Source: Kiritimatiellia bacterium (lineage in GTDB: Bacteria; Verrucomicrobiota; Kiritimatiellia; CAIVKH01). Taken from it: a stretch of DNA of 64,000 bases. The DNA is taken from NCBI GenBank assembly GCA_025054615.1, contig JANWZO010000010.1, positions 1-64,000 on the forward strand, given 5' to 3'. The translations under genes and the position numbers were made by a program. A model generated the notes under the pieces. The model had not been told where the DNA came from, did no database searches, and was given only the letters and a program-made list of their open reading frames with translations. This document shows, piece after piece, positions 29,884-37,183 of the stretch. Positions within the stretch are counted from its first letter, which is position 1. The number at the start of each line of letters is the position of its first letter.

Positions 29884-31692
29884 ATGCCACCGAAATATTC
29901 CATTGGTATCGATCTGGGCACGACCAACTCGGCCCTCGCCTACGTCGATCTGGATGCGCGCGATGCTCATCCGCAGATCCTCCCCATTTACCAGGCTGTC
30001 GCGCCGGGCGTCGTCGAGCCGCTGCCGTTGTTGCCGTCATTTGGATACATTCCAACGGACGACGAGCTAGCGTCCGGCGCTCTGCCGGCCCACCGTGACG
30101 AGGAAGGGGCGTTGGTTGTCGGTCGATATGCGCGAGATCGGGCAGCCGACGCCGCCGTACGGACCATCGCGGCGGCGAAATCCTGGCTGTGCTATCCGCG
30201 TGTGGACCGGCGCAAACCCATTCTGCCCTGGAATGCTCCACGCGACGTTCCGAAGCGCTCTCCCGTGGGCGCATCTCGCGCCTACCTGAGCACGATCATT
30301 GAAACCTGGAATCGCGCCCATCCGGAGAGTCCATTCGCGGAACAGATCGTCGTTCTGACGGTTCCCGCCTCTTTTGACGCGAGCGCGAGGGAATTGACCC
30401 GCGAAGCCGCGATCGCCGCGGGTTTTCCCGCCGAATTTGTGCTCCTCGAGGAGCCACAGGCCGCGCTCTACGCATGGCTCGATTCCCGGGGCGAGAAATG
30501 GAGAAAACAACTCAAGCCCGGAGAATCCATCCTCGTATGTGATGTGGGCGGCGGAACAACTGATTTCACCCTCATCGAGGCCCGGGACAACCAGGGTGAC
30601 CTCGAATTGCATCGAGTGGCGGTTGGAAACCACATTTTGCTGGGCGGCGACAACATGGACGTTGCCCTGGCTGTGTACGCTCAGCAGCGATTCGCTGAAA
30701 AAGGCCATAAATTGGATGCCTGGCAGTCCGTATCCCTCTGGCACGCCTGCCGCCATGCGAAGGAAACGCTGCTCGGGCCCGAAGCCCCGGAGCGCACCTC
30801 GTTGGCCATCGCGGGGCGCGGAACACGCCTGATCGGCGGGTCCATCTCGATCGAAATTTCACGCGATGAAGTACGATCGCTTCTGCTCGAAGGCTTCTAT
30901 CCCCGATGCGCGCCGACCGACCGCCCCGCTTCGCGCGGCGCGGGCTTTCGGCAACTCGGCTTGCCGTTTGAGACGGACACCGCGATCACCCGGCATCTCG
31001 CCGGATTCCTCGCCGATCACGCCGGACTCGGACGCGGCCCGACGCATGTGTTGTTCAACGGAGGTGTCTTCAAGGCCGGCATATTCCGCGACCGATTACT
31101 GGAGGTCCTCCGCGATTGGTTTGGGGATTCGTCGGGCCGGTGGCTAAAGGAGGATGAGGACCTCGATTTTGCTGTCGCTCGCGGAGCGGCCTGCTATGGG
31201 CGCGCTAAGACGCGCGGCGGCATTCGCATCCGCGGAGGTACGGCTCGCGCCTACTACGTGGGGATCGAAACCGCCCTCCCAGCCGTCCCTGGCGTTCCGA
31301 GGCCGGTGCATGCCCTGTGCGTAGCTCCTGTCGGCATGGAGGAAGGAACCTCATGCGAAGTGCCGGGCGAAGAAATTGCGCTGGTCGTCGGCGAGCGGGC
31401 ACACTTTCGTTTTTTCAGCTCGACCCAGCGGATGGAAGACCGGCCAGGCGTCATACTGGAACAATGGTCCGAGGATGAACTCCAGGAAACCGACTCTCTC
31501 GAAACCGTTTTGCCCGCCAATACCGCCTCTGACGCGGGTTGGGTGCCGGTTCGCCTCGAAACGCGGTTGACGGAACTGGGCGTCCTTGAGATTTGGTGCG
31601 TCGAATCGGGCGGCAATCGCCGCTGGAAACTCGAATTCAGCGTTCGAGAGCCGGAGGGCGAAGAGGCGACGACCCCAACGGCACCGCCATGA
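29884..31692 (+). CDS. Hsp70-family protein (short, first of a tandem pair)
   Basis: A 602-residue actin-fold ATPase of the Hsp70 superfamily. Nucleotide-binding motifs: GIDLGTTNSALAYVD (phosphate 1), VCDVGGGTTDFTLIE (phosphate 2), VLFNGGVFKAGIF (adenosine). It departs from DnaK in the segment LGGDNMDVALA and in the C-terminal part, where a short beta-like region (VPVRLETRLTELGVLEIW) remains from the substrate-binding domain but the helical lid is missing. It therefore may not bind peptides like DnaK. It starts 34 bases after DUF2760 and overlaps the next Hsp70 gene by four bases. No DnaJ or GrpE is nearby. Confidence 0.92.
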   Translation: MPPKYSIGIDLGTTNSALAYVDLDARDAHPQILPIYQAVAPGVVEPLPLLPSFGYIPTDDELASGALPAHRDEEGALVVGRYARDRAADAAVRTIAAAKSWLCYPRVDRRKPILPWNAPRDVPKRSPVGASRAYLSTIIETWNRAHPESPFAEQIVVLTVPASFDASARELTREAAIAAGFPAEFVLLEEPQAALYAWLDSRGEKWRKQLKPGESILVCDVGGGTTDFTLIEARDNQGDLELHRVAVGNHILLGGDNMDVALAVYAQQRFAEKGHKLDAWQSVSLWHACRHAKETLLGPEAPERTSLAIAGRGTRLIGGSISIEISRDEVRSLLLEGFYPRCAPTDRPASRGAGFRQLGLPFETDTAITRHLAGFLADHAGLGRGPTHVLFNGGVFKAGIFRDRLLEVLRDWFGDSSGRWLKEDEDLDFAVARGAACYGRAKTRGGIRIRGGTARAYYVGIETALPAVPGVPRPVHALCVAPVGMEEGTSCEVPGEEIALVVGERAHFRFFSSTQRMEDRPGVILEQWSEDELQETDSLETVLPANTASDAGWVPVRLETRLTELGVLEIWCVESGGNRRWKLEFSVREPEGEEATTPTAPP

Positions 31693-34454
31693 CGGTATCC
31701 GCCCGTTTCACGGTCGGAATCGACCTCGGGACCACCAATTGCGCGGTCGCCTACGTCGACCACCGCGAAGGCAGAAAAGTCCATGATTTCCGAATTGATC
31801 AGTGGGTCGCCCACGGCGTCCGCGAGCGGCGCGATCTGCTCCCCTCCTTCCTTTGCGCATTGTTGCCGCATGAGAGGACCCCGGAGGACGAGCGGTGGAA
31901 CCCTCGCTGGCGCGCCGGCTACTTTGCCAGAGACATGGCCACAACCGCGGAAACACGGTGCATCCATTCGGCAAAATCCTGGCTCTGCCATCGGCTGGTC
32001 GACCGCGAGGCGCCAATCCTTCCCTGGCAGGCCGACCCGCAGGTGCAGAAAATTTCTCCTATCGAAGCGCAATCGATCCTGCTCTCTCACATGCGGACGG
32101 CATGGGACCTGGATCATCCGGATGCTCCTCTCTCGGAGCAGGAGGTGTATCTTACGGTTCCCGCCTCATTCGATGAATCCGCGCGGGAATATACCCTTGC
32201 CGCCGCGCGCCTCGCCGGCCTACCGGAGGTCCGTCTGCTCGAGGAACCCCAAGCAGCGTTTTATGCCTGGTTGGCCGAGCATGAAACCTCATGGGAACGA
32301 ATCCTCCAACCGGGAGACCAGGTTTGGGTCTGCGACGTAGGAGGCGGCACAACGGATTTCACGCTGATCGAGGTGCGTCGTCGCTCGGACGGCACGCCAA
32401 GTCTGCACCGCACAGCCGTCGGAGAGCATCTGATCCTCGGCGGCGACAACCTGGACCTCGCCCTTGCCCTGCATTTGGAGCCGCGCTGGGGAGTCCGCCT
32501 GGATGCACGCCTGCTTCCCCCCGCCGTTGCGGTCTGCCGAAACGTGAAGGAGCTGTTCTTCTCCAATGACGCTCCCAATGAAATGGATGTGGCCCTTCCC
32601 GACCGCGGCGCGCGACTCGTCGGAGGATCCCGACGAACACGAGTGGAACGGGACGAAATTCGCGAATTCCTTTTGAACGGGTTTTTGCCAGTGGTCCCGC
32701 TGGACGCGACCGTTGCGCGGAGTGGCTCCGCTCTACAAGTGTTTGGCCTGCCCTACGCAAGAGATCCCGCCATTACACGGCACGCCGCGGATTTTCTGCG
32801 ACAGCATTTGAAACGGGCTGAGGACGGTCGGCCCATTCCGCCTAGCGCGATCCTGTTCAACGGCGGATTTTTTATCTCCTCTCTGTTGCGTGAACGTTTC
32901 CTGCAAACGGTCAGCCAATGGTTCAGCTCGGCTGATTCGGCGTGGGTTCCGACTGTTTTGTCTTCATCGCGGCTTGACCTCGCAGTGGCCCGAGGCGCCG
33001 CATACTTTGGGCTCGTTCAACGAGGGTCTGGCGTACGAATTCACTCGACCCTAGGTCGCGCGTATTACCTCGCCCTCGGATCGGCCACTGGGATGGAATC
33101 TGAACGAGCCGTGTGTATTGCGCCTGCAGACCTGGAACCCAACCTCCGCATTCGGGTGGATTCGCTTCCCCTGCGGGCTCGGGTCAATGCGCCCGTCAGC
33201 TTTCAATTGGCTCACTCGCACAGCCGAGTCGGCGACCGGGCCGGTGACATCGTTCCCCTCGCTGACGAGGGCGTGGTGCTGACGGACTCCCTCCAGACGA
33301 AAATTACGACCTCGACCCGGGGAGCAGGCGATCTTCTTGACGTGGCCTTGAGCGCCGAATTGACCGAGATTGGGACCTTGGATGTTCGGATTCAGGCGCG
33401 CGGCGGACCCCAGCAGTGGCGGCTGACCTTCGATGCGCGGGAGAGCCGGCCCGCGAGCATGGGACAAACGCACCCCCGAAGTCTCGAAGCGATTGATGCT
33501 TCTCTGGTGGATCGGGTTCGTCGCGCCGCAGAGTCGTGGTTTGAACTCCCGCCAGCGGAAGCGGAGCAGAGCTCCATTTTTAAATCAGTCGAGGCCGCAG
33601 CCGGCCTAAAGCGCGAAGACTGGTCCGCCGCCCGATGCCGGGCATACTGGGATGCCTGCCGAGACTTGGAATCATTGCGGCGACGATCACCGGGGCATGA
33701 AGTCGGATGGCTGAACCTCGCGGGATATCTGATGCGTCCCGGCTACGGATTTCCGGGCGACGATGCGCGGGCACAACAACTGTGGAAAATCATGTCGAGC
33801 GGTCCGATTCACATCAATCGCGACACGGTTCGATGCGCGACCTGGATCTTCTGGCGGCGCCTCGCTGGAGGTCTTTCGCGCGGCCAGCAGACCGCACTCG
33901 CCGGACCCCTTGCTCGGGCCGTGCGTGAACTGGCCGCCGGTCGTACGCCGAACCATCCGCCTCTACGGCGCGGCGCTTATGAGACCACCGAGGTCATCCG
34001 ACTCCTCGCCTCGCTTGAGCGGTGGACCGCCCAGGAGCGAGAGGCGCTCGCCGACCGACTGGCCGAGGTCGTCAGCGGCAGGGGAAAGTGGGTGGACCCC
34101 CGGGTCGCCCGCTGGGCCTTGGGACGCCTTGGCGCACGCGAACCTGCCTACGGACCCCTCAACGCCGTTCTATCAGCCGACAAGGCGGAACTATGGCTCC
34201 AAGCCCTAATGGAGGGCCTACCGCCAGATCGCCTCACAGATGATGACCTGTTCGCCATCGGGTCTATCGTCCGACGGACGGGTGACAGGATGCGAGACGT
34301 TTCAGAAACAGCCCGAACAGCGGCTCTCAATGCTTTGCGCAAAAGGGGCGCAGCCGAAGAGATGCTGGCCGCGTTTGAATCAGGATCGGAGTGGAACGAT
34401 GCCGGGCGAAATGCCGAATTTGGCGAGGCCCTGCCGCCCGGGCTGATAATCTAG
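31689..34454 (+). CDS. Large Hsp70-family protein with C-terminal DUF3731-type region
   Basis: A 921-residue protein homologous to its upstream neighbour over the first 580 or so residues: GIDLGTTNCAVAYVD, VCDVGGGTTDFTLIE, ILFNGGFFISSLL. After the short beta domain (LTEIGTLDVRIQARGG) it continues with about 330 mostly helical residues (ESWFELPPAEAEQSS onward, GYLMRPGYGFPGDDARAQQLW) that match the DUF3731 region known from this protein group. The start ATG 31689 overlaps the first gene's TGA. The two ATPases plus DUF2760 form one translational unit. Client and cochaperones are unknown. Confidence 0.9.
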   Translation: MTVSARFTVGIDLGTTNCAVAYVDHREGRKVHDFRIDQWVAHGVRERRDLLPSFLCALLPHERTPEDERWNPRWRAGYFARDMATTAETRCIHSAKSWLCHRLVDREAPILPWQADPQVQKISPIEAQSILLSHMRTAWDLDHPDAPLSEQEVYLTVPASFDESAREYTLAAARLAGLPEVRLLEEPQAAFYAWLAEHETSWERILQPGDQVWVCDVGGGTTDFTLIEVRRRSDGTPSLHRTAVGEHLILGGDNLDLALALHLEPRWGVRLDARLLPPAVAVCRNVKELFFSNDAPNEMDVALPDRGARLVGGSRRTRVERDEIREFLLNGFLPVVPLDATVARSGSALQVFGLPYARDPAITRHAADFLRQHLKRAEDGRPIPPSAILFNGGFFISSLLRERFLQTVSQWFSSADSAWVPTVLSSSRLDLAVARGAAYFGLVQRGSGVRIHSTLGRAYYLALGSATGMESERAVCIAPADLEPNLRIRVDSLPLRARVNAPVSFQLAHSHSRVGDRAGDIVPLADEGVVLTDSLQTKITTSTRGAGDLLDVALSAELTEIGTLDVRIQARGGPQQWRLTFDARESRPASMGQTHPRSLEAIDASLVDRVRRAAESWFELPPAEAEQSSIFKSVEAAAGLKREDWSAARCRAYWDACRDLESLRRRSPGHEVGWLNLAGYLMRPGYGFPGDDARAQQLWKIMSSGPIHINRDTVRCATWIFWRRLAGGLSRGQQTALAGPLARAVRELAAGRTPNHPPLRRGAYETTEVIRLLASLERWTAQEREALADRLAEVVSGRGKWVDPRVARWALGRLGAREPAYGPLNAVLSADKAELWLQALMEGLPPDRLTDDDLFAIGSIVRRTGDRMRDVSETARTAALNALRKRGAAEEMLAAFESGSEWNDAGRNAEFGEALPPGLII

Positions 34455-34489
34455 ATCCGAAACTTCGCATCAGCCCAGAAAGGGGCTGA
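34440..34489. terminator. Nested inverted repeats between convergent genes
   Basis: GGGCTGAT (34440-34447) pairs with ATCAGCCC (34469-34476), and TCAGCCC (34470-34476) can instead pair with GGGCTGA (34483-34489) across a six-base loop. The structure spans both stop codons of the convergent Hsp70 and phosphohexomutase genes and may terminate in either direction. No long T run follows. Confidence 0.4.
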
Positions 34490-35828
34490 GCCGCGATTCG
34501 ATTTCGTCGGCCAACGCGTTTGCCTGCTCGGCGCGCGGGGCTTCCACGGTGATCCGCAGGACCGGCTCCGTGTTCGATCGACGGACATGCGCCCATGCGT
34601 CTTCGAATTCGATAAAACAGCCGTCCAAAAAATTCATCGGCCGATGGGAATAGGCTCGGCGCAACTCCCGAAGCGCGACGGGAACCTGCTCCGAGCGGAT
34701 CGTATTTTTGCGACGGACAACCACGTAGGCCGGCATTTCCGATCGAAGCTGGGACACGGTTTTGCCGGTCCTCGCCATGAGCTCAAGGACGATGGCCATG
34801 GCGGCAAAACTGTCGCGACAAGGATGGATGCGCGGAAGGATCACGCCCCCGTTGTGCTCGCCGCCGATGACCGCATTGCTTTCCAGCATGGCTCTTGCAA
34901 CATGCGTCTCGCCGATTCGCGTCCTCGAAACGCTGCAGCCTGCCGCGCGGGCGACATCCTCCACGACTCGGCTCGCAGAAAGGTTGATGACCACGGGACC
35001 CCGCTCGTGCGCCTCGAGCACCTGCTTGCAAGCAAAGGCGAGAGTCAGATCCTCGCCGATCGGTTCGCCGCGCTCGTCGACAATCGCCAATCGGTCGCCA
35101 TCCGGGTCCTGGGCAAATCCGATATCGCAACCCTCCCGAACGACGGCCTGCGAAAGCGCGGTCAGATGCTGGGGAAGAGGTTCGGGATTACGCTCAAAAA
35201 CGCCGGTGGGGGCGTCGTGAAGCGGGACGACCGCGCATCCGAGCAGATTCTCAAGAAAAAATTTCGAGTAAAGGGCCCCAACGCCGTTGACGACATCGAC
35301 CGCCACACGAAAGCGCCGGGCCCGAATCGAATCCCGGTCGACGTAATCAACGATACGCCCAAAGTGGGCCTCCATGGGATAAGGTTGATGTGCGACGCGC
35401 GCGATGTCGGCTTCCGCGACAAAAGGAAAATCCTGCTGGTGGTAAAGATCGAAGAGATGCTGGGCTTTCTCTTCGCCGAGGAACAGTCCGCGCCGGTCGA
35501 TGAACTTCAACGCGTTCCATTCGGCGGGATTGTGGCTCGCGGTGATCATGATGCCTCCACGCGCGGCGAGGTGCCGCGTGAGGAAGAGAAGCGTCGGCGT
35601 TGGAACCACGCCCACCAAGACGGGTTTGCACCCCACGCTCTGAAGACCCGCGACTACAGCATATTCAATCATCAATCCGCTGGGCCGCGTATCGCGGCCG
35701 ATAAGTACCGAGCCCCGACCCACGAACGCGCCAAAGGCCTGCGCGAAACCAACGGCAATCTGGGGCGTGAAGGATTCCCCAACGATACCGCGAACTCCGG
35801 ATATGCCGACCTTGAGAAGCTCTCTCAC
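34470..35828 (-). CDS. Phosphohexomutase (phosphoglucosamine/phosphomannomutase type), catalytically intact
   Basis: A 452-residue alpha-D-phosphohexomutase that shifts phosphate between C1 and C6 of a sugar. All four motifs are intact: the phosphoserine loop ITASHNP (Ser 98), the metal loop DPDGDR (Asp 241, 243, 245), the sugar loop GGEHNGG, and the phosphate-binding RRSNTEP. GISGVRGIVG near the start and GGEHNGG resemble archaeal-type GlmM, but the exact sugar cannot be fixed. The GTG at 35828 overlaps the stop of its paralogue in GTGA, so both are made together. It probably supplies sugar-1-phosphate for the glycan locus to its right. Confidence 0.92.
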   Translation of the reverse strand: MRELLKVGISGVRGIVGESFTPQIAVGFAQAFGAFVGRGSVLIGRDTRPSGLMIEYAVVAGLQSVGCKPVLVGVVPTPTLLFLTRHLAARGGIMITASHNPAEWNALKFIDRRGLFLGEEKAQHLFDLYHQQDFPFVAEADIARVAHQPYPMEAHFGRIVDYVDRDSIRARRFRVAVDVVNGVGALYSKFFLENLLGCAVVPLHDAPTGVFERNPEPLPQHLTALSQAVVREGCDIGFAQDPDGDRLAIVDERGEPIGEDLTLAFACKQVLEAHERGPVVINLSASRVVEDVARAAGCSVSRTRIGETHVARAMLESNAVIGGEHNGGVILPRIHPCRDSFAAMAIVLELMARTGKTVSQLRSEMPAYVVVRRKNTIRSEQVPVALRELRRAYSHRPMNFLDGCFIEFEDAWAHVRRSNTEPVLRITVEAPRAEQANALADEIESRLSPFLG

Positions 35829-37183
35829 GAAGCGGCCCCCTGTTCGATGACCCGGAGAGCGTCCTCCGCCCGCTGTTCGGCAATCGCGCGGGACCGCGAC
35901 TCGGAAATCACGCGGACGACCTGTTCGGTATTGGACATGCGCACATGCAGCCATCCGTCCTCCCAGTCGAAGCGGACCCCGTCAGTCGTATCGATCGACT
36001 CCGGTGCAAATTCACCTGCGAGTCCGAGAAACTTTTCGAGCACCTGATACGCCACCATCGAGCGGCAGGGGACGGTCTTCTTGACCTGTTGGTATCGTGG
36101 TAGCGACTGCGCGAGCGCCGACAATGGAAGACCTGATCGCGCCATTTGCTCCAAAATCAGCGCCGTCATCAGGAATCCGTCGAACGCGCGGCTGAACGTT
36201 GCGACTGACACCCCGCCGCTTCCCTCTCCGCCGATTTGCGCCCCCTCATCTGCCATTTTCGCCACCACATAGGCCTGCCCCACTGGCGTTTTGAGTAGCT
36301 GGGCCTTAGCGGCCGCCACCACATCATCCACCATGCGGCTCGAACAGCAATTCGTCACCACCGGTCCGGACATCCGGCCGAGCATATGCCGTACAATCAA
36401 CGGAAGGGTGTATTCCTCGCTCAGGGGTTCCCCCGCTTCGGTGACCAGTGACATGCGTCCCATATCACTGCTGTAGACGAATCCGGCATCGCCCTCCACG
36501 TGCCGGATGAACGAAGCGATCTGCAGGGCGCTGCGCGGCCGGGGCTCGGGCTCTCGCGCGAGATATCCCGATGGGGTTCCATTGATGGCCACCAGCCGGA
36601 GACCAAACTCATTCGCGAAATCCTGAAGAAAAGGACATCCGGCGCCTCCGACCGGATCCATCAGGACCGTGAATCCAGCCTTTCTGACCGCCTCGCGATC
36701 GCACACCTGCGAAAGCGCTTTCAGATAAGGCGCAAAAAAATCGGATCGGGATACGACGGTGCCGAGGTTCAGCGCATCCTTGCGAAGGAATTTGGCGGCA
36801 TGGTAGGTGTCCAGCACGGCCTCCCCCACGTCCGGGGACAAGAGCGCTCCATCGCTCCCGATGAGCGTCAGGGCATTCCAGCCCATATGATTGTGACCGC
36901 CCGAGATCGAAATCGCGCCAGCCGCTCCGAAGGGTCGCACACTGTACTGAAGAACCGGCGCCGGACAAATACCGAAGTCCAAGACATCGCAACCGCAACT
37001 CATCAGGCTTGAGACGACAGCGGAATGAATCATGGGGCTGGAATACCGCGTGTCTCGTCCCACGAGCACCCGCCCTCCATCCACAAACGTGCCGAACGCC
37101 GCGGCGAAGTCCATCACGACGCGCGGAGAAAGCGATCGGCCCACAAATCCGCGGATTCCGAAACTGGAGAGGCGCAGCGCCAT
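35825..37183 (-). CDS. Phosphohexomutase paralogue lacking the catalytic serine (pseudoenzyme)
   Basis: A 452-residue paralogue of the next gene, equal in length and full of recognisable family segments (SSFGIRGFVG, LVGRDTR, GGEGSGG, RMSNTEQ). But the active-site loop reads ISGGHNH where the family has ITASHNP: the phosphoserine position (residue 96) is Gly. The metal loop reads SSDMGR (238-243) instead of DPDGDR, losing two of three Asp ligands. I checked both loops in the DNA; they are not frameshifted. The intact frame suggests selection for a non-catalytic role, for example regulating or pairing with the active paralogue encoded in GTGA overlap. ATG 37183 is preferred because the upstream extension is unlike the paralogue. 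Confidence 0.85.
   Translation of the reverse strand: MALRLSSFGIRGFVGRSLSPRVVMDFAAAFGTFVDGGRVLVGRDTRYSSPMIHSAVVSSLMSCGCDVLDFGICPAPVLQYSVRPFGAAGAISISGGHNHMGWNALTLIGSDGALLSPDVGEAVLDTYHAAKFLRKDALNLGTVVSRSDFFAPYLKALSQVCDREAVRKAGFTVLMDPVGGAGCPFLQDFANEFGLRLVAINGTPSGYLAREPEPRPRSALQIASFIRHVEGDAGFVYSSDMGRMSLVTEAGEPLSEEYTLPLIVRHMLGRMSGPVVTNCCSSRMVDDVVAAAKAQLLKTPVGQAYVVAKMADEGAQIGGEGSGGVSVATFSRAFDGFLMTALILEQMARSGLPLSALAQSLPRYQQVKKTVPCRSMVAYQVLEKFLGLAGEFAPESIDTTDGVRFDWEDGWLHVRMSNTEQVVRVISESRSRAIAEQRAEDALRVIEQGAAS

Follow-up and report, generated by a model that had tools for sequence, protein, structure and literature searches.

Phosphohexomutases are textbook enzymes that are considered self-sufficient. 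Why a bacterium should keep, immediately ahead of a mutase with intact catalytic motifs, a second full-length copy deprived of them is the question raised by a gene pair in the window, i.e. the whole stretch of 64,000 nucleotides analysed here (contig JANWZO010000010.1, positions 1 to 64,000, from a Kiritimatiellia bacterium). The answer we lean towards is that the product of the upstream gene is a phosphohexomutase subunit that has lost catalysis but has been maintained, and that it probably acts as a ligand-binding partner in a hetero-oligomer with its active sister and could, in this sense, be called ‘prozyme-like’.

The gene pair in the window

Both genes lie on the minus strand, to which all positions given for them refer. 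The upstream (35825-37183) and downstream (34470-35828) frames are each open over the full 452 residues, with no stops, and share a stop/start overlap, GTGA, at 35825-35828, as read from the DNA; the tandem of two 452-residue mutases that the preliminary description had reported is thus confirmed. Each protein contains four Pfam PGM_PMM domains, in order and all above cut-off, and is modelled by AlphaFold2 with high confidence (pLDDT 96.5 and 96.4 for the upstream and the downstream protein, respectively). With the NCBIfam model TIGR03990 (Arch_GlmM), the downstream protein scores 496.5, above the cut-off of 439, and the upstream one 380.9, below it. The genome of the window encodes two more phosphohexomutases, one of which passes the GlmM cut-off (616.3 versus 447.55), while the other is closest to PMM/PGM, under its cut-off (452.2 versus 618), so that the tandem pair comes on top of these.

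Two tandem Hsp70-like proteins, seen as translations only (GIDLGTTNSALAYVD at 29884-31692 and GIDLGTTNCAVAYVD at 31593-34454, both on the plus strand), converge on the mutase pair, the second carrying a long C-terminal extension. Nothing notable was found in the way of repeats around the pair in the window.

Loss of the catalytic residues

The downstream protein reads ITASHNP, DPDGDR, GGEHNGG and RRSNTEP at the four active-site loops, its phosphoserine loop TASHNP being encoded at 35526-35543 and its metal loop DPDGDR at 35091-35108, and the SNTEP core of the last motif being intact. In the phosphoryl-transfer loop of the upstream protein (ISGGHNHMGWNALT, 36866-36907), the phosphoserine is replaced by Gly96 (codon 36898-36896) and the acid/base-type Lys by Thr106, with His97 kept; in its metal-binding loop, SSDMGR (36472-36455), the first and third Asp are replaced by Ser238 and Gly242, with Asp240 and Arg243 kept. 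The altered serine and metal motifs had been described before as being in frame, as they are indeed; absent from that description was the loss of the loop-1 Lys (Thr106, versus Lys108 in the partner), which corresponds to the catalytic Lys118 of PaPMM/PGM. With the phosphoserine, the loop-1 Lys and two of the metal ligands gone, the protein cannot, given the known mechanism, carry out the usual ping-pong mutase reaction.

Seen in a single genome, the replacement of three kinds of catalytic residue might equally point to a pseudogene in recent decay, or to a sequencing or assembly error. The relatives leave this reading with practically no credence: the same pattern is found in dozens of genera belonging to two phyla, with no stops, with the binding loops kept and with dN/dS of 0.03-0.26. 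Among 112 distinct upstream homologues, only two, both from Acidobacteria (L048 and L050), have all the catalytic residues (Ser, loop-1 Lys and three Asp) intact, compared with 104 of 104 downstream sequences. The loss in the window gene is, therefore, not a chance event, and the recurrence that the preliminary description had proposed as a check is borne out both for the lost residues (110 of 112) and for the tandem order (90 of 90 linked pairs, dead copy first in each). The row groups underlying these counts were first set by residue state, and L048 and L050 were then added by position; gene order agrees with the groups, as does the tree except for the DDE/DEE group considered below.

The phosphoserine position is non-Ser in 102 of the 112 upstream homologues. 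Both Ser and Lys are lost in 93; nine have lost Ser and kept Lys, with DDE or DEE at the metal site; six keep Ser and Lys and have lost the first Asp; and two are in other states. The position of the third metal ligand is occupied by S, G, T, Q, C or E, and that of the loop-1 Lys by T, I, V, A, N, Q and others; in the 104 downstream partners the latter is invariably Lys or Arg. One upstream copy of the DDE/DEE group (L167:1492-2826) has no catalytic Ser, yet scores 478.8 with Arch_GlmM, over the cut-off of 439, and would, as a result, be named a phosphoglucosamine mutase. A second, divergent tandem pair (L154:6947-10584, G144:C73), whose upstream copy has the Ser and a metal site reading TMDGGR, occurs in a genome that also holds an ordinary pair (C155).

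Occurrence and gene order in relatives

In a first search of 58 genomes, the dead type was found in 19, that of the window included. Within the class, 39 of 346 genomes gave a match, 38 of them with the dead type and one (G337) with just the active type; when the phylum was sampled evenly, the figures were 53 of 289, 50 with the upstream type and three (G348, G404 and G489) with just the active type. Even sampling of the phylum to which an Aminicenantes genome belongs gave matches in 31 of 297, and loci from Lentisphaerae, Aminicenantes and Acidobacteria came up when 85,000 species genomes were scanned. Dead-first tandems are thus spread over bacteria of the Kiritimatiellia and Lentisphaeria types and over Aminicenantes/Acidobacteria; one of them lies on the complete chromosome of Lentisphaerae bacterium WC36 (CP085689).

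The median spacing of the two genes is -1 nt; an overlap of 1 or 4 nt is found in 45 of 89 linked pairs, 4 nt being the commonest spacing. The genes lie apart, with both kept, in a genus-level group (g123; G347, G352, G354, G393 and G445) and in G311. A complete or partial downstream partner was present wherever checked, even with the genes on different contigs; where it seemed to be missing, the contig ended, or the partner was split, frame-shifted or located elsewhere. None of the pairs examined was a natural fusion of the genes. Single loci show further peculiarities: the reading frame is split in the upstream copy of L052:5980-7300 and in the partner of L176:2781-4245, by a sequencing error or a real frameshift, and the active partner in L040:1366-2973 has an insertion of approximately 35-40 residues ahead of the metal loop.

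Selection and evolutionary history

In close pairs, dN/dS is 0.03-0.26 for the upstream and 0.03-0.22 for the downstream gene, and the upstream gene evolves only approximately 1.1-1.2 times as fast as its neighbour. Recent decay of the upstream gene, which the preliminary description had named as its own refutation should the orthologues be intact, is ruled out by these values together with the recurrence of the pattern. The distances in the trees of the two genes correlate with r = 0.82 over 96 pairs (maximum 0.12 in shuffles). In a quick tree of 130 sequences, most upstream and downstream copies split into largely mirrored subtrees, the DDE/DEE upstream group being placed with the downstream side; in a smaller, careful tree all upstream sequences come together with weak support (85/61), with the DDE/DEE group basal and the Ser-retaining ones in between. 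On the latter tree the state of the serine changes at least twice, in the NDS/SDG clade and in the DDE/DEE group.

The upstream gene is, then, a paralogue of great age and under selection, which nearly always lacks the mutase residues and is kept with an active-looking partner, and the maintenance of its product without mutase chemistry is well supported. The maintained pseudoenzyme of the preliminary description finds strong support in this antiquity, in purifying selection and in the active neighbour kept alongside. Such a long joint retention of the two genes makes it probable that the dead copy serves some function.

Retention of the binding loops and of the closing interface

The rest of the upstream protein had been described as well kept, and this holds for its four domains as well as for the sugar-binding loop GGEGSGG (36212-36232) and the phosphate-binding loop RMSNTEQVVR (35912-35941), which match the patterns GE.xG and R.S.TE..R. 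A point absent from the earlier description is that these two loops (loops 3 and 4) are kept in 112 of 112 upstream copies. Equally universal is a pair formed by Glu257, within Ser255-Glu256-Glu257 (36413-36421), and Lys368 (36080-36082); His97, Arg243, Asp335, Asp401 and Gly402 are likewise invariant in the 112 sequences. In the alignment to Pseudomonas aeruginosa PMM/PGM, Glu257, Lys368 and Arg404 correspond to Asp261, Glu375 and Arg410, positions that are part of the domain 4 interface closing on the ligand (PMC3369874), at the junction of domains 3 and 4. In the downstream family, positions 257 and 368 covary, being D-K, E-K or D-R in 59 sequences and mostly Q-S/N/T/G or H-S in the remainder, which suggests that they are in direct contact, shared ancestry also contributing to the pattern.

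Since the sugar loop, the phosphate loop and the Glu-Lys pair are kept, the dead copy probably still binds, and closes on, a sugar phosphate. It would, in other words, have retained a ligand-dependent, or permanent, closure while losing the chemistry. The same retention bears on the idea that the dead copy serves to stabilise the fold of the active one or to chaperone its assembly, ligand binding being irrelevant. Genes that overlap and are coupled, the dead one coming first, would suit co-translational assembly, but such a role leaves unexplained why loops 3 and 4 and the closing-interface pair are conserved, and we regard it as very improbable.

A further alternative is that the upstream protein is a neofunctionalised enzyme with a rebuilt pocket, catalysing a different sugar-phosphate reaction in the same pathway, before or after the mutase. 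It has conserved pocket residues of its own (Tyr153, Arg215/Arg217, Ser255-Glu256-Glu257, Gln303, His97, Asp240 and Arg243), many clade-specific changes fall close to the active-site loops, and tandem coupling suits two enzymes of one pathway. However, neither a nucleophile nor a metal site has been conserved in place of the lost ones, the positions of the third ligand and of the Lys drift as those of a new active centre would not, and conserved pathway neighbours are missing, all of which makes a new reaction unlikely.

Genomic context

The preliminary description had placed the pair at the edge of a glycan locus, an association that turns out to be incidental. In near relatives the pair adjoins TatC and SecA (the latter identified by its match to the gene in the window), in Lentisphaeria HAD or Trp synthase, in Aminicenantes biotin carboxylase, and elsewhere other genes. 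Because the neighbours differ between relatives, the glycosyltransferases beside the pair in the window are no clue to its function. Clustering of the neighbours at 38 loci revealed nothing general besides the mutase pair, and no third gene conserved across classes; a glycan-locus function is ruled out by this result.

These observations also weigh on the proposal that the dead copy is a moonlighting regulator, specialised for binding a third protein. GlmM does inhibit the diadenylate cyclase CdaA through direct binding (PMC8573169), and PGM5 illustrates that the phosphohexomutase fold can serve without catalysis (PMC7761743). The active paralogue is, nevertheless, the one gene that generally accompanies the dead copy, so that a third-protein target appears rather improbable.

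A proposed hetero-oligomer of dead and active subunits

The favoured reading, a dead subunit acting on its active sister, would start from an archaeal-type PGM/PMM/GlmM gene that was duplicated in tandem long ago, one copy having died and been inherited with the other. The dead copy would bind a sugar phosphate or bisphosphate, and a hetero-oligomer of the two proteins would replace the homotetramer of the archaeal relatives, with the dead protein as a structural or an allosteric, ligand-sensing subunit of the active mutase. The best PDB matches of the upstream model in Foldseek are the archaeal-type PGM/PMM structures 9du5 and 1wqa (TM 0.90); 9DU5, like the phosphopentomutase 9IX8, is a homotetramer built as a dimer of dimers (PMC11940775, PMC11641776), and a heteromer on this plan is a natural guess. 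The gene order, the 4-nt overlaps, the mirrored trees and the binding loops make it plausible that the upstream protein pairs with its neighbour or regulates it; gene coupling and mirrored trees would, at the same time, also result if the two were enzymes of the same pathway or had been transferred jointly. The mutual information between the two proteins in 96 pairs (approximately 61 effective sequences, so that the test is weak) was not enriched at the expected dimer elements, nor were clade-specific substitutions at dimer-interface columns (p ~0.7-0.85). The open papers searched contained no heteromer within the phosphohexomutase superfamily.

In three loci of gut Lentisphaeria (L045:7073-8425, L046:3520-5022 and L047:6105-7541), the normally active downstream partner is itself altered. 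It reads TASQHP and DPDGDS, the Arg being lost, with a shortened loop 3 (GAEG-GS) and RKSYSES as loop 4, while it retains the Ser, the Lys or Arg and the three Asp; its dead neighbour has exactly the loops that it has lost. It evolves approximately twice as fast as the dead copy, still under purifying selection. A possible, clearly more tentative extension of the favoured reading is that the pairs represent a bacterial prozyme system among phosphohexomutases, i.e. that the two proteins form obligate hetero-oligomers whose dead subunit, gated by a ligand, switches the active mutase on or off, the catalytic serine having been lost at least twice at the same operon position, and that each subunit in L045-L047 retains a complementary half of the active site.

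A dead subunit conserved across two phyla would place their hexose-phosphate flux under pseudoenzyme control and provide a prokaryotic prozyme case with graded intermediates (intact; first Asp lost; Ser lost and Lys kept; all lost). A class of misannotated ‘phosphoglucosamine mutases’, such as the upstream copy of L167, would also be flagged.

Relation to known systems

No prior description of a bacterial dead/live phosphohexomutase pair was found in the open papers searched, and the closest systems each share some of its features. The archaeal-type PGM/PMM enzymes (Thermococcus kodakarensis PGM, 9DU5; Pyrococcus horikoshii, 1WQA; TIGR03990) have the same fold, length, four domains and loops 3 and 4, whereas the upstream copy is without the phosphoserine, the first and third Asp and the loop-1 Lys, and 9DU5 is assembled from active subunits only. 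Vertebrate PGM5 (aciculin) is, like the upstream copy, an inactive phosphohexomutase paralogue, in which substrate binding is kept (PMC7761743); unlike it, this muscle protein retains the phosphoserine and the metal Asp residues and has no operon partner enzyme. In the GlmM-CdaA complex of Firmicutes a phosphohexomutase fold likewise serves as a regulatory binding partner (PMC8573169), but GlmM keeps its catalytic residues and its target is an unrelated cyclase. Finally, the trypanosomatid prozymes (AdoMetDC prozyme and DHSp) are also catalytically dead paralogues retained beside active ones, an arrangement that the mutase pair reproduces in its sequences, and there formation of the heteromer activates the enzyme (PMC5201418, PMC3663545). 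They concern other enzymes, in eukaryotes, and the activation established for them is what we infer for the mutase pair.
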